Of a stretch of 32,704 bases of DNA, positions 1 through 28,545 are shown piece after piece (position 1 is the first letter of the stretch; each line of letters begins with the position of its first letter). The notes beneath the pieces were generated by a model that had not been told where the DNA came from, ran no database searches, and saw nothing but the letters and a program-made list of their open reading frames with translations. Source of the stretch: a virus. Both the position numbers and the translations under genes were made by a program. The DNA lies in the IMG/VR virus record IMGVR_UViG_3300009605_000068, positions 1 through 32,704 of that record; one strand, 5' to 3'.

Positions 1-2565
1 GCAGGGATCCGTGGTGGAGCGGACGCCAAGACCGCTGGCGCTTCAATCAGGCCCGCGTATCTTCGTATGGAAAACCCCGTTGACAGCTCAAAGCCGCCGC
101 CAGAGGAGCTTAGGGCGGCCCTGGTTGAGAGGCTTGGAAAAGATATTACAGAGGCAGAAGCACGAGTTAGGCCGGACGGGATCAAAGTATTCGGTGAAAA
201 AGATCTTAGCAGAGCCAGAGAGGTTCTAGAGCTTCTATCGGACGGCCCCAAACTTTCTAAATGGGTTGAAGCTGACAACGCTAAACATCCAAACTCGCCT
301 GGGTGGGTAAATCTTTTCGCCGGTCAATCATGGATGGTTGCTGACGAGACGAAGAACATTATCACCGACACTGCAATACATGAAACGATCCGAACAATGG
401 GCTACGACGGCATTATCGGCAAGAGTGTTATGAAGCCGTTCGAGGCTGAATACGTTGTTTTCAGCAAAGATCAAGTAATCTCAAAGTTCGATGCCTCAGC
501 CGATAAGGCCAAAGCGGTGGCCACAGAAGCGGCAGAAAAGACACGAGAAGCCGCACACAAATCACTGGTGGTAGCAGAGGGTAGATTTGGTAGGTATATG
601 AAGTCCCTGCAAGACGGTAAGATAGAGCTTATCGGTAACGGGAAGTACCGCGTAAAAGAGACTGACGAGATCTTTGACATTATTTCTTTCAAGGACAAGC
701 GCACAGATAAGTTTAAGTTTGTTGGCGAGTACAGTGAAGATCTTGAGAAGGCTATCATTTCTGATAATATCCTGCACGGAAGAACACATGTCGATTCATT
801 CCGTAGCGTTACATCTAGCCAACTACCTGTTGAATATGCCGGGCCTAGAACAAGCTCGTACTATGTGTCTGAAAGTATAGCCTCGCTTGTCAGGCAGATT
901 AACCAGCCGCTATATGACAGTCAGTATAAGGCGATCAATACCTTCTGGAAAGGCTACGACCAGATGGTGCAGTTCTTTAAGATCCCCATGCTTGCTATGT
1001 GGGGCGCGACATGGCAACGCAACGCCATTGGCAATGTGACCCAGGGCGTTCTAAGGGCCGGGATGAGCTTGTTCCATCCAGAGAACTTCAGGGACATGAG
1101 CAGGATTTGGCGGTACGCCATGGCTCAGTCTAAGGTTGGTAGCTGGAAAGGCGTCTCGCCAGAAAAGATCAAAAAACTTGGCCGGATGGAGATCAAAGCT
1201 CTTGGAGACAATCACAGAGGCAGGCCAACTACAGTAGCGGAACTTTACAACGAGATGGGGCAACGTGGAGTTCTGTCAGGCATGTGGACAGATGAGATTG
1301 ATCAGACATTCTCAACTACACAAGGCCCTCTAGGCAAATACCTTGTGTCTAAGCTGCCTGAAAATATGCAGGCAGAGGCCGCCGCGAGAATGCCAGGCGC
1401 AGCAATGGGTGGCGCAATCGGCGCAGGCATAGGCGGCCCGTTCGTAGGCCTGCCGGTAGGTATGGCGATTGGTGCGCTGCTGGGGAACCACGCAGCCAAG
1501 ATGAATTGGGCTTTCAAGGCTGGAGAGGCTGTATCTGAAATGCCAACACGTGTGATGCTTGGCTTGTCAGTATACAAAGAAACTGGCAGCCTTATGGCAA
1601 TGGGTGACGATGTAAGGTTCTACCTGCACGATTACTCTAACCTGTCTACGTTTGAAAAGAAGTATCTTCGTAGGGCGATGCCGTTCTACAACTTCTTTAA
1701 GATGGCCACAAGAACAGTCGGTACAGCGGCGTTCGAGGAACCTGCTAGAGTTATGCTGCCGCATAAGATATTCACAAATCAGAATATGGCAGGCACGATG
1801 AACCCGTTTGGTTCACCGCAAGACAACCCTATTATGCCGGAAGAGTACCCAGACTATCAGCACGATCAGTTGAAGTTTATGGGCAGGGAGATTATTGACG
1901 AAAAGACAGGGGAGCTTGCTCCGTGGATTAAGGCTGGGTTCGCATTGCCGATGCAGGAAGTTGGTCACATGTTTGATGCAGTAATGCCTGGCGGCAAATC
2001 AGGCGTTGCTATGGTTTCTCGCGGCCCGTTTGTTGTCAGCAGCATGATCGAGTATGCCTTCAATTACGACACATTCAGGCTTGGTAAAATCAAGCCGGAT
2101 CTGCCAGGCGAAAGGACTAAATGGACTAATGGCAAACCATTCAAGGGTGCCCCTGATTGGATGAAAGAGCTTATAGATTATCAAACCTACGATAATGGAA
2201 CATCATCTGTAGATCCGACTGTTGCATGGTTGCTTGGCGAGACAAATGTTTCCCGCTTTACAAACATTGCCAAGCAAGTCTGGAAGGCCGACGAGGAAGA
2301 AGCAAAGAACTTTAACTACAGGGCTCTCTCAAAAGCAGTCATGGCATGGACGCACTACAGGTACGACCCTGAAACTCAGACGTACTGGAGCAACAAAGCT
2401 AAGATTGACAAGATGGAAGAGCTGCTTGCTGGCATCGGCAGGCTTAAGTCATACAGACAAACTTACGTTGTTGACCCAGAAACAGGAAAGAGCGTTAAGC
2501 GAACACGAAGCCAAGGCTCTGCACCTATCCCCTTCACATTGCCAGATCCGATCATTGTTAAATAG
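1..2565 (+). CDS. Large polyvalent virion/ejection protein with ART-like domain, 3' part
   Basis: The reading frame is open from base 1, so the true start lies upstream and only the last 854 or so codons are seen; the ATG at 67 is internal. The first 150 residues contain AYLRMENPVD, then GYDGIIG and EYVVFSKDQVIS, the pattern of ADP-ribosyltransferase-like (ART-PolyVal) domains in phage polyvalent proteins. Further on, QRNAIGNVTQGVL resembles large-polyvalent-protein C-terminal domains. Counting from the ATG at 67, residues 443-475 form a Gly/Ala-rich glycine-zipper stretch that could insert in a membrane. Such proteins are usually packaged and injected with the DNA. Its place at the end of the virion block agrees. 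The ART assignment is by motif only, and catalytic residues upstream of the window cannot be seen. Confidence 0.7.
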   Translation, partial: AGIRGGADAKTAGASIRPAYLRMENPVDSSKPPPEELRAALVERLGKDITEAEARVRPDGIKVFGEKDLSRAREVLELLSDGPKLSKWVEADNAKHPNSPGWVNLFAGQSWMVADETKNIITDTAIHETIRTMGYDGIIGKSVMKPFEAEYVVFSKDQVISKFDASADKAKAVATEAAEKTREAAHKSLVVAEGRFGRYMKSLQDGKIELIGNGKYRVKETDEIFDIISFKDKRTDKFKFVGEYSEDLEKAIISDNILHGRTHVDSFRSVTSSQLPVEYAGPRTSSYYVSESIASLVRQINQPLYDSQYKAINTFWKGYDQMVQFFKIPMLAMWGATWQRNAIGNVTQGVLRAGMSLFHPENFRDMSRIWRYAMAQSKVGSWKGVSPEKIKKLGRMEIKALGDNHRGRPTTVAELYNEMGQRGVLSGMWTDEIDQTFSTTQGPLGKYLVSKLPENMQAEAAARMPGAAMGGAIGAGIGGPFVGLPVGMAIGALLGNHAAKMNWAFKAGEAVSEMPTRVMLGLSVYKETGSLMAMGDDVRFYLHDYSNLSTFEKKYLRRAMPFYNFFKMATRTVGTAAFEEPARVMLPHKIFTNQNMAGTMNPFGSPQDNPIMPEEYPDYQHDQLKFMGREIIDEKTGELAPWIKAGFALPMQEVGHMFDAVMPGGKSGVAMVSRGPFVVSSMIEYAFNYDTFRLGKIKPDLPGERTKWTNGKPFKGAPDWMKELIDYQTYDNGTSSVDPTVAWLLGETNVSRFTNIAKQVWKADEEEAKNFNYRALSKAVMAWTHYRYDPETQTYWSNKAKIDKMEELLAGIGRLKSYRQTYVVDPETGKSVKRTRSQGSAPIPFTLPDPIIVK

Positions 2566-2576
2566 GAGAGCCGGAC

Positions 2577-2963
2577 ATGGGACTAATTCATTCACAACTA
2601 CTAACCGTTACAACCGGTGTGTCCAGTACACTTACACGGTTCAAGTTTCAAGGTGATTATGGACAACAGGGAACCATTAACAGTCTGGAGCTTAATTTTG
2701 ATACTCTCGCTGGTGGTGCTAATTCAATCGCTAAGCTGACACTAAGCTGGGTCAATGCAGACAGCCGGTATCTGGTAAACAAAGAGACCACGCTTACGTT
2801 GGACATTGACGCCGACACAGCCACTACCGGCTCTTACGAACTGTCTGTTAACAAAGAGTTCAATGGGATCCCAGCGGGAGCCACAGGTATCTGGCTTGGC
2901 GTTGCGCTTAATGCAGGCACGGCTAACCTTAACGCTTTCCTGCATGTACGAGGGCACGCATAA
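2577..2963 (+). CDS. Small virion-associated protein, unknown
   Basis: 128 aa, starting at ATG 2577 behind GGAG in taggagagccgg. The protein is rich in Thr, Asn, Ser and Gly, with alternating hydrophobic residues and no signal peptide or membrane segment, as in beta-rich phage decoration or head-completion proteins. Its TAA overlaps the ATG of the next gene by one base (TAATG), so the two are translationally coupled. It lies between the ejection-type protein and the PKD-domain protein, which suggests a virion role. I do not recognise a family. Confidence 0.7.
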   Translation: MGLIHSQLLTVTTGVSSTLTRFKFQGDYGQQGTINSLELNFDTLAGGANSIAKLTLSWVNADSRYLVNKETTLTLDIDADTATTGSYELSVNKEFNGIPAGATGIWLGVALNAGTANLNAFLHVRGHA

Positions 2964-3964
2964 TGGGCGCTCGTAGATGGAGAAGAGCCACAATAGGTAA
3001 GCAGTGGGGTGTTTCCTCTGCCCCAGCAATACCTGTAGCTGATGCAGATGCGGATCAGGCATGCGACGGTAGGCCGACGATTACTCTTGATGGTAGTGGC
3101 TCTGAGGCTGGAGCTACGTTCGCCTGGCTGCTTACGAATCCGTCTGGCGACAATGTTACGAGTCTATTGTCATCGTCTACAGCACGGTCTCCTACATTCA
3201 AACCACAAGATATTCCCGGTCTGTACTCTGCAAAGGTTGCAGTAACAAAGGGCGGCCTTACATCCCATGACTCGTGCAATGTCACGGTCGGTATCTACGG
3301 CGGGCAGTTCATACGCCTGGTTCAAAGCGAAGCGGACAGCACATATGATTCTGGTAACTACACTAGTACGGCCTGGGGTGATACCGATGGTTGGACGACT
3401 ATGGTTCTTGGCGCCAAGTCTGGCTCCATCTTAAACCCCACCGATTCCCAGGTTAAATGGTTTACATCGAGTGTCACAGATTGGGATAAGATTCAGACAG
3501 TAGAGTTCCGCATTACGTTTAAGCATGACTTTGTTCAGCCCGTGTCTGGGCGTCAATGCTACGCGGGTATTATTCTTAGCCCGACTAACAACCCGGCAGA
3601 TGGCGGGCTTGTTCACGTTGCGTTCCGCACTGACGATAGCACACCTATGGATGCATCTCGGATCTCTCAAAGAGCCGGAACTCAAAGCTGGTCTTGGGGA
3701 TCTACGGCGACTGGCGCTGATACCATGTACGGCGCGCTTACTGTCCGGCTTGGCGTTGGCCGCATTGTGCAGGTACAGACGGGTAAATGGCTGAGCAGCA
3801 CTGACGGGTCGTTCAACTCTGAAATCTGGTCGTCTGTTGGTCTTAACCTGGACGGGTTCCCGCTACACATTGGCATGTTTGTAGGCCGAGCAGCCGTGAA
3901 TGTTGACGACCAAACTATGAAGTTCAAAGTTTATTACAGAGTTAACCTGAAGGAAGATCTATAA
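2963..3964 (+). CDS. PKD/Ig-like domain protein, likely spike or fibre
   Basis: 333 aa. After a basic N-terminus, residues 20-110 fit a PKD/Ig-like domain: ITLDGSGSEAGATFAWLL, then GLYSAKVAVTKGG and a DSCNVTV end, the usual PKD order of DGSGS, a W strand and the Y.V.LTVT-type strand. Residues 112-333 are a beta-rich region with many Trp, Gly and Thr residues that could be a lectin-like or jelly-roll receptor-binding domain. It is coupled by one-base overlaps to the genes on both sides. Role inferred: a tail spike or fibre, or a head fibre that contacts the cell surface. The C-terminal domain is unassigned. Confidence 0.65.
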   Translation: MGARRWRRATIGKQWGVSSAPAIPVADADADQACDGRPTITLDGSGSEAGATFAWLLTNPSGDNVTSLLSSSTARSPTFKPQDIPGLYSAKVAVTKGGLTSHDSCNVTVGIYGGQFIRLVQSEADSTYDSGNYTSTAWGDTDGWTTMVLGAKSGSILNPTDSQVKWFTSSVTDWDKIQTVEFRITFKHDFVQPVSGRQCYAGIILSPTNNPADGGLVHVAFRTDDSTPMDASRISQRAGTQSWSWGSTATGADTMYGALTVRLGVGRIVQVQTGKWLSSTDGSFNSEIWSSVGLNLDGFPLHIGMFVGRAAVNVDDQTMKFKVYYRVNLKEDL

Positions 3965-4308
3965 TGGCTACTGCGTCAATCGTGTTTTTTACACAGGCCG
4001 GAGACAGGGGGCCTGTTGTCTGGATCGACAATCGTGGCAGTGAGTCTTCTTTGGAGACAGATCTTGATGAAGCGTTCAATACGTTCACACCTGATCTTTC
4101 TAAGCCAGGCCGCATCGCAGGACAAATCCTATCATGGTACGAAGTGAATAAATCTACCGTGAAGGCGGAATGTAGGATAGAGGCAGATTGGGATTCTTCT
4201 ACGCATATCAATATGGATTGCGCGGCACCGGACGGATCTGGCAGACCTTCTGCAAAGACACTGATCCCTGCAAGCGGCGATGAAACAGATTTCGTCTACG
4301 GCGGATAA
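3964..4308 (+). CDS. Hypothetical protein in virion/lysis block
   Basis: 114 aa, starting at the ATG that shares one base with the preceding TAA. It is a soluble, acidic, beta-type sequence (VFFTQAGDRGPVVWIDNRGS near the start) with no membrane segment. It ends two bases before the next ATG. Its position between the fibre-like protein and the holin pair suggests a small tail-fibre accessory or a late protein, but I recognise no family. Confidence 0.65.
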   Translation: MATASIVFFTQAGDRGPVVWIDNRGSESSLETDLDEAFNTFTPDLSKPGRIAGQILSWYEVNKSTVKAECRIEADWDSSTHINMDCAAPDGSGRPSAKTLIPASGDETDFVYGG

Positions 4309-4309
4309 A

Positions 4310-4522
4310 ATGACTGAGTGGGAACTTTCTGTGGCGCTTGCCGCGCTGTGGCTTCCAGTCACAGCGTCAATAATTGGCATGGCGCTAAAGTTTGGATCGC
4401 TTACAAACTCAGTTCAGCAAATGAAAGAACAAATGGCACAAGATTCAGAGACGCTAAATGATATAGTAATAAGAGTCACTAAGATAGAGGTACTTGTAGA
4501 TGGACAAATTAAAAAGCCGTAA
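4310..4522 (+). CDS. Small membrane protein with coiled coil, holin-associated
   Basis: 70 aa from ATG 4310. An in-frame ATG at 4280 would overlap the upstream gene by 29 nt and is less likely. Residues 5-27 form one hydrophobic segment, followed by SLTNSVQQMKEQMAQDSETL, a heptad-like helix, and a short basic end. This is the layout of XhlA-type haemolysin/holin partner proteins and of i-spanin-like phage proteins. Its 3' end overlaps the next gene by 23 nt. The lysis role is inferred from topology and neighbour. Confidence 0.6.
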   Translation: MTEWELSVALAALWLPVTASIIGMALKFGSLTNSVQQMKEQMAQDSETLNDIVIRVTKIEVLVDGQIKKP

Positions 4523-4685
4523 GTTTTGGTTCGCGCTCATTGGTGCGTTGCTTCCGATCATAGCACAACTCCTTACTGACAGCGTAGAGCTTGGAGAAGC
4601 ACTAACACTGTCAGCAGGAATCATTGTTGCTTACATCTGGGGACAGGCATACACAGATGGTCAAAGCCAGGTGTCGGGAGACTAA
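4500..4685 (+). CDS. Putative holin
   Basis: 61 aa. A short positive N-terminus (MDKLKSRKFW) precedes two hydrophobic segments, about residues 9-26 and 35-49, separated by an acidic turn, then a polar tail with TDGQSQ. This two-span small protein fits class II holins, which open the inner membrane at the end of infection. It overlaps the preceding coiled-coil membrane gene by 23 nt. Its TAA overlaps the stop codon of the opposite-strand gene, so the two operons meet with no room for a terminator. No endolysin lies next to it; candidate cell-wall enzymes are at 25 kb. Confidence 0.65.
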   Translation: MDKLKSRKFWFALIGALLPIIAQLLTDSVELGEALTLSAGIIVAYIWGQAYTDGQSQVSGD

Positions 4686-23698: not shown

Positions 23699-23773
23699 CG
23701 GGGCAGCAGCCGAAAGACCAGGGAGAACCTGCACTATCGGCGGATCCGGGGATCTCAGCTGACGATTTTGGCC

Positions 23774-24000
23774 GATTTTGATTTTGACTTTGACTTTCAT
23801 TTTCAACATCGCGACGCGAGAACAAGAGGAACGCGCTCGCGTTGCACGAAACGTGCCAGCCCTAACTGACTTTGACTTTCATTTTCATTTTCAAGATCGA
23901 TTTTGATTTTGACTTTCATTTTCAAGATCGCGTCCAATTGATATTGACTTTGACTTTCATTTTCGTTTCCAATTGACTTTGATTTTCATTTTCAATTGAA
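23774..24000. repeat. Hexamer repeat array, A/T-rich, strand-asymmetric
   Basis: Five blocks of the unit TTGAYTTTGAYTTTCATTTT with six-base periodicity (GATTTT, GACTTT, CATTTT) at about 23774-23806, 23866-23898, 23899-23930, 23942-23968 and 23971-24000. Most blocks end in TTTTCAA, often followed by GATC or CATC. The T-rich strand holds almost no purine pairs. The first block is separated from the rest by a GC-rich spacer with two small hairpins (AACGCG-CT-CGCGTT, GCACG-AAA-CGTGC). This resembles a DNA-unwinding element next to iterons. No spacer/repeat alternation of CRISPR type. Confidence 0.65.
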
Positions 24001-24714: not shown

Positions 24715-24987
24715 ATGCTTAAGTATGTCATTTGGGGACACGCTCGCAGCACAAAGGCGTGGGACTGCCATTTCGTGTCTTTGTGCTGCGTTTCCCTACT
24801 CCTTTCCTGTACATGTAAGAAGCCGATAGACCAGAGTTTGCCGGAATGTAGTAGTTTGTCGGTAGGCGAAGAGGCTTTCGGCATTAAAGGTTCGTCCGTT
24901 GACTCGATCAGCACAGGCAGCGCAGTTGTTATTGTGCCGGTTGACAGCGCAGAAGGCGAAATAGACCTAACTTTTGTTTGTAGGTGA
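24715..24987 (+). CDS. Putative small lipoprotein (possible outer spanin)
   Basis: 90 aa from ATG 24715, GGAG 10 nt upstream, two bases after the previous stop. A hydrophobic stretch ends in a lipobox (SLLLSC, Cys at about residue 32), followed by CKKP and a mature part of about 58 residues. A start at GTG, residue 21, would give a shorter signal. Small lipoproteins next to cell-wall enzymes are often outer spanins; no partner inner spanin is adjacent. The 12-bp inverted repeat 24745-24790 lies in the signal region. Confidence 0.5.
   Translation: MLKYVIWGHARSTKAWDCHFVSLCCVSLLLSCTCKKPIDQSLPECSSLSVGEEAFGIKGSSVDSISTGSAVVIVPVDSAEGEIDLTFVCR
24745..24790. repeat. 12-bp perfect inverted repeat in the lipoprotein 5' region
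   Basis: CGCAGCACAAAG (24745-24756) and CTTTGTGCTGCG (24779-24790), separated by 22 nt. It is the longest perfect inverted repeat I found. The outer bases GACACG and CGTGTC add a competing pairing. It may hide the alternative GTG start and so control expression, or be a DNA site near the packaging genes. Confidence 0.6.
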
Positions 24988-25002: not shown

Positions 25003-25596
25003 ATGCTGCCGTTCCTGTTGCAAGCTGTAGAGTCCGTAGGGCACACTGTATTTACTAAAGGCAAGTTTAACCTGAATATCGTTGGTATCAGGAATAACAG
25101 ACCCGTGCCTAACGAGTTTGACGACCTTATATGTGTAGTCTACAAAGACGAGTATGACCAGTGGATAACTAATAGCTGGCCTGCCACTACTGATCCTGGG
25201 ATGTACTACTTGAACAACCCCATGAACGTAACTGGCACGGCTATTATGATGCCTGGCCAGTACCGGGGCTCGTACAAAATAGGTATGCACTATACATATG
25301 AGGCTCTCGTACAGCACGGCGGTACTGTGCGTATATGGAGAGACTCTAATAAAGACGATATTCTAGACTACGGAATAGAGGACCAGTCTGAGGGTTACTT
25401 CGGTATAAATATCCATAGGGCTCATGCGGACATTAACACAGATACAGTTGACAGGTGGAGCGCAGGCTGTCAGGTGTTCCAGAAACCAGAAGACTTTGAC
25501 GAGTTTATGAACTTGTGTTACAAAGCTGCTGAGATCTGGGGAAACGGTTTTACGTATACTCTTATTGTGCCGAATAAGTTTCTCATGGAGGCATAA
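25003..25596 (+). CDS. YkuD-like (L,D-transpeptidase fold) cell-wall enzyme
   Basis: 197 aa, ATG 25003 with GGGAG upstream. The C-terminal half has YFGINIHRA (about residue 139) and DRWSAGCQVF (about 153-160), matching the His and S-x-G-C catalytic pattern of YkuD-type L,D-transpeptidase or carboxypeptidase domains. The first half (MLPFLLQAVESVGHTVFTKGKFNLNIVGIR) and GTAIMMPGQYRGSYKIGMHY fit the family's strand region. In a phage it may act as an endolysin-type peptidoglycan enzyme in lysis or entry. No signal peptide is clear. The catalytic residues look intact. Confidence 0.7.
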   Translation: MLPFLLQAVESVGHTVFTKGKFNLNIVGIRNNRPVPNEFDDLICVVYKDEYDQWITNSWPATTDPGMYYLNNPMNVTGTAIMMPGQYRGSYKIGMHYTYEALVQHGGTVRIWRDSNKDDILDYGIEDQSEGYFGINIHRAHADINTDTVDRWSAGCQVFQKPEDFDEFMNLCYKAAEIWGNGFTYTLIVPNKFLMEA

Positions 25597-25661
25597 TGCC
25601 TAAGCCGTACAAGAAGCGAAAGAAGCTCAAGCCTAAGCCGTACAAGAAGCGAAAGAAATGA
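25596..25661 (+). CDS. 21-aa lysine/arginine-rich tandem-repeat micropeptide
   Basis: After Met the peptide is two copies of PKPYKKRKK joined by Leu-Lys, so nearly two thirds of residues are Lys or Arg. At DNA level a perfect 27-nt repeat (25598-25624 and 25631-25657) recurs at 33 nt. GGAGG precedes ATG 25596, which shares one base with the upstream TAA; the stop overlaps the next ATG as ATGA. Coupling on both sides argues it is translated. It may condense or bind nucleic acid, or act on membranes. Confidence 0.6.
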   Translation: MPKPYKKRKKLKPKPYKKRKK

Positions 25662-26227
25662 AAATCGGCTTCAACATTTCTGGCCCTATCGGGGCCGTGG
25701 TCCCTTTCTGTGCTCCGTATGGAAGCGAGGTTGAGTTTTCTACCAGATATGTGTGGGAGGCTGCCTTTGCAGCGGACATGCACGGTTATAAGACTTTTGT
25801 CACATCTGATGGTTCTAATAGATCAAGAGCAACCAGGCAGAACTCAAGACACTTGAATCTCGTTCTTCTTTGCGGCGCGTCAGATAGTGACCACGGTTCC
25901 ATTTACATTTCACACAGGACTTCTGCACTTAACAGAAGGCGTGTGATCAAAGCAGCGGCTATGCTCTCTAGTCTTTCCGCTAGAGAGATCTCCGTAATCG
26001 ACACAGAAGGCGGCTCTGAAGAAGACCTAAGCATGCGTGGCTATAAGGCTTTTTGCTGGCTGGTTAGGCTGCCGTTCACACAGGATTGCAAAAACGCTGG
26101 ACACCAGTTGCTAGCTGCGCTACGGTACGCCTATGACTTACAAGACTCAGATAATGCAAGCGCTGGAAGACTTGGAAGTAACACCGCAGTCGATCGCGGA
26201 ACAACTGGCGCAAGTTATTCGTGGTGA
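25658..26227 (+). CDS. Divergent amidase_3-like protein
   Basis: 189 aa, ATG 25658 overlapping the upstream stop as ATGA. The order resembles N-acetylmuramoyl-L-alanine amidase_3 domains: a Glu in YGSEVEFSTRYVWEAA, a TFVTSDGSNRS region like the TR motif, GSIYISHRTS like the S-x-H-x-N zinc motif, and SVIDTEGGSEE like the terminal Glu. The first zinc His (GHGG) is absent; the matching spot reads GPIGAVVPF. It may be an inactive or altered amidase. Assignment is tentative. The last 95 nt overlap the next gene. Confidence 0.5.
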   Translation: MKIGFNISGPIGAVVPFCAPYGSEVEFSTRYVWEAAFAADMHGYKTFVTSDGSNRSRATRQNSRHLNLVLLCGASDSDHGSIYISHRTSALNRRRVIKAAAMLSSLSAREISVIDTEGGSEEDLSMRGYKAFCWLVRLPFTQDCKNAGHQLLAALRYAYDLQDSDNASAGRLGSNTAVDRGTTGASYSW

Positions 26228-26459
26228 AACAATCACAGAAAAGTTCGACGGGAAAGGTAAGCTGACGGCAAAAACAGTCAGGACAGATCCGCAAGATGCT
26301 ATGCGAGGCGCAATGATTTTTGATGCTATACATGGTGGGGAACTTGGGATTGCACCACGTACTTTAGACTTCAAAAGACCAGCAGAAATCGCACACAAGC
26401 GCATGTTGATTGACTCCCGTATTATTGTCAATGCCGCTGAAATGGATGATGAATCTTAG
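26133..26459 (+). CDS. Small terminase-like protein
   Basis: 108 aa. It opens with helix-turn-helix-like segments (QIMQALEDLEVTPQSIAEQLAQVI), then a strand region and DPQDAMRGAMIFDAIHGGELGI, the usual look of phage TerS proteins of about 100-150 residues. It lies directly before, and overlaps, the large terminase. An internal ATG at 26154 is an alternative start; neither has a clear Shine-Dalgarno. TerS would choose the packaging site and load TerL. Confidence 0.6.
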   Translation: MTYKTQIMQALEDLEVTPQSIAEQLAQVIRGETITEKFDGKGKLTAKTVRTDPQDAMRGAMIFDAIHGGELGIAPRTLDFKRPAEIAHKRMLIDSRIIVNAAEMDDES

Positions 26460-28545
26460 CGATGAACTACTAGTAAAAGAAACAGCAAGGCTTCTGTATT
26501 TTGAGCATGAGGCTAAGAGCACGGGTACGTCTGGAGAACAGATAGAGGAGATAGAAGGCCGCATAGAAACTATAAAAGAGTTGCTAGAAATGCAGGGCGT
26601 TGAGATCGATGAAGACTCAATCCGGCAGAGAGCAACTATCGCGTTCCTTGCTCAGACCGGCCTTACCCCCATGGAGGCCGCGAGCGGGTTCTCTACGAAA
26701 GTAGCTAAGGTAAAAAATACCAAGTCTTCTACCGTATCTGTCAAGCGTAGCCCTCCTCCGTCCAAGGTTCCTACAGCCAATCCTACTGACCGGCTTTACT
26801 CAGACTTCCCTTTCTTTTGCAGGATGTGTCTGGAGATTGCTTACCGGCCAGGGCTTAATCCTAATGCGCCTGACGGTGGCTACGGCGCGTTTGTTCTCAA
26901 CGAAGGGCAGCGCAAAGTTGCCGCTGTCATGCTTGACCAATGGCTTAATGATGAGCCTGTTCGTATTATTATACTTAAGTCGAGGCAGCTTGGTATTACT
27001 ACATTGCTAATGGCGTTCTGGTTATGGCTGATTATTCAGAACCCAGGCATTACTGCGATGATCATTATTGATAAAGGGGACCATCTTAATGAGAAAAGAC
27101 AAACATACGTGCGCTGGCTTGAGCGCATGGCAGAGTCATACCCCGGACTGCCTAACATCAATCGTCGCGGCTCAAAAGTTATTGAGCTACAAAACATGTC
27201 AAGAATCCTCTTCGAGTCTGCCGAGGCACCGAACCCAGGAACGTCCGAGCATATCGCAATACTACACTGCTCAGAAAAGCCAAAGTGGCCTCGTGGACGT
27301 GACAGACAAATCGACGCTAGTATCGTTCCAGGTCTGCCAGAGAAGGGACGGACAATCTACGTAGATGAATCTACCGCCGAAGGTGTTAACGGATTCTATC
27401 ATAGGTGGCACAGAATTGTAGAAGGCAAGGCAGAGGCTACGCCTATATTTTTGCCGTGGTTTATTTCTTCAGAGTACCAAACAAAGCCTCCTGAGTCTTG
27501 CTATGATTCCGAGGGCAATTTCATTTATTTAGAAGATGACATCGAAGTATGCGAAACTGATGAAACGGGTAAGATTGTCCTTACTGAGTCTTCTTTTGCT
27601 GGTCTTCACAACCTTACCGATAGTCAGACATACTGGCGCAGGGGTAAGATTAAAAATGCGTTCGCTGGTGACAGGGCTATTTTCGATCAGGAGTACCCAA
27701 CCACTCCGCGCCATGCTTGGCAGATTGTTGGAGGCAAGTTCTTTTCTTTTGACGAGATTGAACGATGCCAAAAAGAATCTGGCGATCCTATTATTTGCGG
27801 CAATCTTGTTGACAGTAATGGTAATGATGATCCTCTAAGACTTCTGCCTTATGGAGAGTATTCGCCCTCTATTATTCCTGTTCCTTATGGATCCCTTCAG
27901 ATTAGAGAAATGCCGAAGGAAGGAGATACATACTATATTGGCGGCGATGTAGCAGAAGGTAAGCAGACTACTACCGCGTCAGGTTCTACAGACTATGACT
28001 ACACTGTCTTCGTTGCCAAAGATGGGCACGGCAGGACAGTGGCGTTGTTTAGGGACAGGATCAAGCCTGAAGAGGCTGCGCTTCCGCTGCTTCTTATGAG
28101 CATAATGTATAACAATGCCCTGGTTAATTGTGAACGCAACGGGCCTGGGCAAGTAGTCTGGTCTATGTTTAGACAGACTGGATACTATAATGTTCATTAC
28201 AGGAAGGGCAAGGGTTCTATCTTGGATCGTGCCTGGGCGTTGACAACTCAGTCTAACAGGCATCCGTTGCTGTATTCCTTGAGGGCGTCATACAGAGAGT
28301 GCCCTGACAGACCATGGTTCAAAGAAACCATACTTGAGATGAATGAGCTTATCATTGACAACAAAGGTAAGATTCAAGCCAGGCGTGGCGCTCACGATGA
28401 TATTATCATTGCAGAGTGCCACTCTTGGAGCATGATTTATGCAGAGAAGGGCGTCGTCCTTCATTCTGAAAAACCAGAAAAACCAGCGCCGAGCGCGTTG
28501 CTGTTTGATGATATTATGTCGTTTAACGGCATAGAGAGGTGGTAA
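26446..28545 (+). CDS. terL: Terminase large subunit
   Basis: About 699 aa; start at ATG 26446 or 26449, overlapping the TerS-like stop by 11-14 nt. Walker A-like IILKSRQLGITTLLMAF (about residue 178), the Walker B/catalytic Glu region HIAILHCSEKPKWPRG, and the coupling region VDESTAEGVNGF are present. The RNase H-like nuclease has GGDVAEGK (about 499), CERNGPGQVVW and HDDIIIAECHSW (about 650), covering the metal-binding acids. It pumps DNA into the prohead and cuts it. An N-terminal acidic helical extension of about 90 residues is longer than in many relatives. Confidence 0.95.
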   Translation: MMNLSDELLVKETARLLYFEHEAKSTGTSGEQIEEIEGRIETIKELLEMQGVEIDEDSIRQRATIAFLAQTGLTPMEAASGFSTKVAKVKNTKSSTVSVKRSPPPSKVPTANPTDRLYSDFPFFCRMCLEIAYRPGLNPNAPDGGYGAFVLNEGQRKVAAVMLDQWLNDEPVRIIILKSRQLGITTLLMAFWLWLIIQNPGITAMIIIDKGDHLNEKRQTYVRWLERMAESYPGLPNINRRGSKVIELQNMSRILFESAEAPNPGTSEHIAILHCSEKPKWPRGRDRQIDASIVPGLPEKGRTIYVDESTAEGVNGFYHRWHRIVEGKAEATPIFLPWFISSEYQTKPPESCYDSEGNFIYLEDDIEVCETDETGKIVLTESSFAGLHNLTDSQTYWRRGKIKNAFAGDRAIFDQEYPTTPRHAWQIVGGKFFSFDEIERCQKESGDPIICGNLVDSNGNDDPLRLLPYGEYSPSIIPVPYGSLQIREMPKEGDTYYIGGDVAEGKQTTTASGSTDYDYTVFVAKDGHGRTVALFRDRIKPEEAALPLLLMSIMYNNALVNCERNGPGQVVWSMFRQTGYYNVHYRKGKGSILDRAWALTTQSNRHPLLYSLRASYRECPDRPWFKETILEMNELIIDNKGKIQARRGAHDDIIIAECHSWSMIYAEKGVVLHSEKPEKPAPSALLFDDIMSFNGIERW

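Follow-up and report, generated by a model that had tools for sequence, protein, structure and literature searches.

A polybasic micro-ORF overlapping a predicted YkuD-type endolysin gene in a marine-type phage, with a tentative role in lysis

Introduction

The disruptin gp28 of Escherichia phage phiKT is a cationic lysis peptide (Holt et al. 2022, as cited in PMC12819732). Their small size and diversity make disruptins difficult to predict (PMC12819732). Recognisable spanins are absent from 91 of 677 surveyed phages of Gram-negative hosts (PMC6139136).

Polycationic peptides are also attached to endolysins by design. The KRKKRKKRK nonapeptide (PCNP, Artilysins) and C-terminal KRKRK-type or (KR)n tails make endolysins more effective against Gram-negative cells (PMC12170589). 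Such tags are 5-15 residues long, of the K/R type and non-amphipathic; they are engineered fusions that act from outside and serve to get the endolysin across the outer membrane.

Protein J of the microviruses (phiX174 group) is a tiny, highly basic, late protein of ssDNA phages, with an aromatic C-terminal part that binds the capsid. The products of overlapping gene pairs are often partners. Termination-reinitiation couples genes whose overlap is 1-4 nt long and is nearly abolished once the genes are separated by ~20 nt (PMC10666635).

The locus described here lies in a 32,704-nt stretch, IMG/VR virus record IMGVR_UViG_3300009605_000068, which was analysed whole and is called the window. It encodes a terminase large subunit (TerL) and a portal, as a tailed dsDNA phage does, and its source is a marine-type phage. 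The features discussed are collected in Table 1.

Table 1. Features of the micro-ORF locus, the dispersed lysis candidates and the corresponding slot in a sister clade (window coordinates unless a relative is named).
Feature	Position	Strand	Remarks
Polybasic micro-ORF	25596..25661	+	21 codons, MPKPYKKRKKLKPKPYKKRKK then stop
27-nt perfect repeat, copy 1	25598..25624	+	codes PKPYKKRKK
27-nt perfect repeat, copy 2	25631..25657	+	start-to-start 33 nt = 11 codons
GGAGG, Shine-Dalgarno-like	25587..25591	+	4 nt before micro-ORF ATG
Predicted endolysin of the YkuD fold (L,D-transpeptidase/carboxypeptidase-like), upstream gene, 197 aa	25003..25596	+	PHROG endolysin 2e-16, fold match
Downstream gene, 189 aa, no family match	25658..26227	+	start overlaps micro-ORF stop (ATGA)
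Conserved 108-aa gene directly before TerL	26133..26459	+	position of small terminase subunit
Terminase large subunit (TerL)	26449..28545	+	also query for relatives
61-aa holin	4500..4685	+	PHROG holin
80-aa ORF, one transmembrane segment + coiled coil	4280..4522	+	holin- or i-spanin-like
90-aa putative lipoprotein, SLLLSC lipobox	24715..24987	+	possible o-spanin
Conserved 31-aa ORF directly after endolysin, sister clade	L011:4567-4662, L091:2462-2557, L092:2039-2134		

The polybasic micro-ORF

The micro-ORF peptide, MPKPYKKRKKLKPKPYKKRKK, has a net charge of +13, with 62% K/R and no acidic residues. The original prediction of a 21-aa poly-basic frame, made of two PKPYKKRKK units on a perfect 27-nt repeat, was reproduced in full by translation and a repeat search. 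Both copies are in frame and are joined by an LK linker, and the entire ORF is interspersed with Lys codons and with CGA/CGT for Arg. The repeat is the sole direct-repeat family within 1.8 kb around the micro-ORF, has no further copy elsewhere in the window with up to three mismatches allowed, and was reproduced in 0 of 100 shuffles. In-frame duplications of this sort are common in low-complexity peptides, and the repeat is unremarkable by itself. Disruption by frameshifts, raised earlier as a sign against a gene, is seen in none of the three contigs of the window phage.

The predicted overlaps with both neighbours are present. The start shares 1 nt with the stop of the 197-aa enzyme gene (TAATG), and the stop shares 4 nt with the start of the 189-aa ORF (ATGA). 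A good ribosome site had also been claimed; GGAGG provides one here, but a relative with a micro-ORF of its own, L003, has GGTTG in its place, with no Shine-Dalgarno-like match.

No family in PHROGs or Pfam matches the peptide, and degenerate DNA pattern searches gave matches only in the same phage. A tblastn search of the peptide against phages gave no match, with the low-complexity filter as the likely cause.

The upstream enzyme

The upstream enzyme matches PHROG endolysins as well as PHROG families of unknown function. Its AlphaFold2 model (pLDDT 94.5) was aligned with YkuD-fold enzymes in 44 of the 45 rows given by VIA-align, with Z up to 9.1. Foldseek against the PDB alone missed the YkuD fold, which VIA-align detected on the same candidates. 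H138 and S153-A-G-C156 (SxGC) are invariant in a 36-member alignment of the enzyme. At L092:1470-2036 and L093:2542-3108, SAGC is replaced by SAAC and the catalytic cysteine is retained.

The enzyme is like members of the YkuD family (Pgp2, Csd6, Bd1075, DpaA, LdtMt2) in its predicted fold and H...SxGC motif. It differs from them in that Z is 6-9 at 10-17% identity, and the phage proteins form a family of their own (PHROG 3000/33083) with no Pfam match. Judged by the model, it is a predicted YkuD-fold enzyme with the catalytic His and SxGC.

In relatives, the enzyme gene directly precedes ORFs that are holin-like or combine a transmembrane (TM) segment with a coiled coil, and this placement makes it a probable lysis gene. 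In the window phage, it most likely serves as the endolysin. Its net charge is -10, opposite to that of the micro-ORF peptide. The L051 enzyme (L051:1659-2300) carries a fused polybasic C-terminal tail of +7, GEPTQRPTKKTKRTKKVKS, a single case among ~55 distinct C-termini.

A member of the same enzyme family is found in Pseudoalteromonas phage ACA1 (L084, Peduoviridae; 2465-3085), between the tail tube and tail assembly chaperone genes. From this position, members of the family may also act as tail-borne wall enzymes.

Downstream genes and dispersed lysis candidates

The 189-aa protein has no match in PHROGs or Pfam, and its AlphaFold2 model has a pLDDT of 37. Amidase_3 was considered on a topology similar by eye and was rejected, as hhalign gave a probability of 0.2% against three Amidase_3 domains. 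The window has no profile match to Amidase_3 (PF01520), a family marked by GHGG/E/SIHANA zinc-ligand motifs. The 108-aa gene is unrecognised by Pfam and PHROGs.

The holin gene closes another late-strand block, ~20 kb away from the endolysin-like gene, and its product is 50% identical to that of an ORF that immediately follows the same enzyme in L023. With the genes this far apart, the phage has no compact lysis cassette, and on gene content the lysis genes appear split. The lysis-like cluster of the original prediction therefore keeps one endolysin-like neighbour, but the other is unrecognisable and the holin is at 4500-4685. Similarly, the suggested help for neighbouring cell-wall enzymes is plausible in the case of one, given its YkuD fold; the plural is unsupported because the downstream protein matches no family.

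The putative lipoprotein was not found outside the window phage among the relatives searched. Together with the TM and coiled-coil ORF, it may form a separated spanin pair; as the record does not cover the full genome, spanins cannot be called absent. Between the divergent early and late blocks, 23770-24000 is noncoding, with degenerate 23-35-nt repeats rich in TTTTGACTTTCATTTTCA, and is a possible regulatory or origin region.

Relatives and the slot behind the enzyme

Queries for relatives were the upstream enzyme, TerL and the 108-aa and 189-aa genes. The two IMG/VR contigs L001 and L002/L074 are the same phage at 99.9% identity, with an identical micro-ORF, and are too close to the window phage to be informative on selection. 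L003/L004 make up one separate lineage, with identities of 64% for the enzyme, 43% for the 189-aa gene, 73% for the 108-aa gene and 78% for TerL. In the same slot, this lineage has a 12-aa frame, MPKRKVKSKKKY, that overlaps both neighbours (TAATG start, TAGTG stop).

The micro-ORFs of the two lineages share only MPK, charge and linkage. The window version has 21 codons and two basic blocks; that of L003/L004 has 12 codons and one. The copy-number change suggested earlier is consistent with this difference in length, but the peptides cannot be aligned past MPK and simple gain of a unit is unsupported. With a shorter version kept in the corresponding slot of the second lineage, positive charge seems to be the selected property, and the exact sequence less so.

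L030 (TerL 69-70%) has neither the micro-ORF nor the 189-aa gene between the enzyme and 108-aa genes, which are ~115 nt apart. The frame, whose loss from relatives had been set as a test of the prediction, thus occurs in L003/L004 and is absent from L030, these being the two nearest other lineages. Both the micro-ORF and the 189-aa gene are present in the window and L003/L004 lineages, and both are missing from L030. On this comparison the basic frame and its two overlaps appear kept across one deep split and lost together with the 189-aa gene in another; support for conservation comes from two lineages. The frame, both overlaps, charge conservation and the identity of the neighbouring enzyme are backed by sequence and comparison. 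The overlaps, kept in relatives, suggest a coupled small gene.

More distant relatives (L011, L091, L092 and L093; TerL 41-45%) fill the slot with a conserved 31-aa ORF, a 57-aa basic ORF and an 86-90-aa TM and coiled-coil ORF. In L011, L091 and L092, the 31-aa ORF places a basic patch behind a hydrophobic stretch, e.g., MKLFLIFLRLATAIINKLPGRRKKCLPEGEE, and ends in PEGEE/EEGEE. It is a candidate tiny lysis protein. The slot behind the enzyme appears from these genomes to be a variable small-gene site.

Chance and base composition

Among 229 ATG ORFs of 10-40 codons on both strands of the window, the micro-ORF alone reaches a K+R fraction of at least 0.55, and none of 200 simulated windows (first-order Markov) contains an ORF that does so. 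With the bases of one repeat unit shuffled, a net charge as high was obtained in only 0.2% of open frames, and in 0.016% for the L003 version. A/G richness alone is therefore insufficient to explain the charge. Mini-ORFs that overlap long ORFs at both ends were also scanned for in ~0.53 Mb of related and own sequence, on both strands. This gave 12 matches (two nested), of which those of the window and L003 are basic (K+R at least 0.5) and all others are at or below 0.17.

A reading as an RNA element was dropped, as the window and L003 fold no better than shuffles (z -0.5, +0.2, +0.4) and Rfam gave no match. A -1 frameshift fusion of enzyme and peptide was also set aside: the peptide is in the -1 frame, yet no slippery X XXY YYZ heptamer was seen by eye in the open stretch. 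No RNA or DNA element accounts better for the micro-ORF, which is likely to code for protein. The earlier view of a real overlapping small gene is borne out by the same slot, both overlaps and the same charge in an independent lineage. The micro-ORF is likely a real, charge-conserved gene, below the size of usual annotation.

Comparison with known systems

Like the micro-ORF, phiKT gp28 (JN882298) is a gene for a short cationic peptide directly after an endolysin gene and overlapping its stop, in a short-tailed phage. Carrying its charge of +13 directly behind an endolysin-like gene, the micro-ORF has the disruptin trait of a short cationic peptide in the lysis region. The two share no sequence similarity: gp28 has 56 aa and 20% K/R, compared with 21 aa and 62% K/R. 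The hydrophobic moment (best 18-residue) is 0.68 for gp28 and 0.27 for the micro-ORF peptide, and the hydrophobic fractions are 0.45 and 0.19. These moments speak against membrane permeabilisation by an amphipathic mechanism, one of the functions first suggested. The peptide is not filed as a disruptin because it does not have the amphipathic helix (LL-37-like) of that group (PMC12819732).

The peptide is closer in character to the polycationic endolysin tags, being short, of the K/R type and non-amphipathic, but it is encoded by a separate natural ORF. The L051 tail is a natural in-frame counterpart of these tags, in the same enzyme family as the upstream gene. Protein J is matched in being tiny, highly basic and late. 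The micro-ORF peptide differs from the J type in belonging to a dsDNA tailed phage, in having no aromatic C-terminal part and in its gene neighbourhood.

Proposed role and alternatives

Our tentative reading, held at less than even confidence, is that the micro-ORF is a microgene for a polycation, coupled in translation to its neighbours and helping lysis beside a YkuD-type endolysin. We infer translation and release of the peptide, a membrane target and an effect on lysis. Ribosomes ending the endolysin would reinitiate at TAATG, produce a polycation of 12-21 residues and then reinitiate at the next gene, and this coupling would fix the ratio of peptide to endolysin. Exiting through the holin together with the enzyme, the peptide would attach electrostatically to the anionic surfaces of the envelope (LPS, phospholipid), to the acidic enzyme, or to both. 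The outer membrane would be loosened, or the enzyme held at the envelope. Such a role is favoured by a separate lineage that keeps frame, overlaps and charge despite another sequence and length, by the nonbasic character of the other bridging mini-ORFs and by the natural polybasic tail of the L051 enzyme. The charge in excess of base composition, the probable lysis role of the enzyme gene, the matching position of phiKT gp28, the benefit that endolysins draw from K/R tags and the 31-aa ORF in the slot of L011, L091 and L092 also count in its favour. Against it, the peptide has no hydrophobic or amphipathic face, and the holin is ~20 kb distant. In addition, the micro-ORF is dispensable to the enzyme, since L030 keeps the enzyme without it.

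The micro-ORF tracks the 189-aa gene better than the endolysin, so a role as a coupling spacer or as a partner of the 189-aa protein is possible. As a spacer, it would be selected for ribosome transit from the endolysin to the 189-aa gene, with the peptide a by-product whose K/R content comes from purine-rich mRNA near the next start. This is rather unlikely, though several observations agree with it. Both junctions overlap in both lineages though lengths differ, the sequence is free to vary, and L030 has lost the micro-ORF and the 189-aa gene alike. Without the micro-ORF, the enzyme and 189-aa genes would be 61 and 37 nt apart in the two lineages, and gaps of ~20 nt already nearly abolish reinitiation (PMC10666635). 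Against a spacer, the other bridging mini-ORFs of these phages are nonbasic, the charge exceeds that of the same bases shuffled, and the Arg and Lys codons run along the whole frame and not only by the next start. Deleting the gap would also be simpler.

Extreme charge and the lack of hydrophobics would equally suit a polycation that condenses or neutralises phage DNA during packaging, or binds RNA. The micro-ORF is three genes ahead of TerL, at the start of the late operon and near the terminase genes, and tiny basic DNA-binding proteins are known in microviruses (protein J). We consider this function unlikely. The micro-ORF goes with the endolysin and 189-aa genes and not with TerL, as L030 has both the 108-aa gene and TerL (69%) but no micro-ORF; the peptide has no aromatic C-terminal anchor of the J type; and dsDNA tailed phages package by a motor and generally do not need such a peptide.

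That the micro-ORF is a chance ORF under no selection is very improbable. It has only 21 codons, and sequence conservation between lineages is limited to MPK, but frame, overlaps and charge recur in two lineages, and the shuffles, simulations and bridging scan all argue for selection. A cis-acting DNA element, with the repeats as a protein-binding site, e.g., pac, and the peptide incidental, is the least credible: the repeat is perfect, its 33-nt spacing is about three helical turns and the terminase genes are near, but L003, L030 and L091 have no direct repeat at the corresponding site, L003 keeps the basic frame all the same, and the repeat preserves the reading frame.

The lysis-assisting reading can be extended, as a speculation to which we give little credence. 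A YkuD endolysin and a co-translated, charge-only, non-amphipathic micropeptide would breach the envelope, either in place of spanins or in addition to them, as a natural trans-acting counterpart of the engineered polycationic tags. The lysine amines might serve as L,D-transpeptidase acceptors, with cross-links exchanged onto the soluble peptide.

Implications

Annotation pipelines with length cut-offs miss this class of gene entirely. Should the micro-ORF prove to be no more than a coupling spacer, it would illustrate neatly how a spacer evolves when its frame and overlaps are constrained. A charge-only micropeptide tied to an endolysin through gene overlaps, if true, would broaden the range of features to search for.
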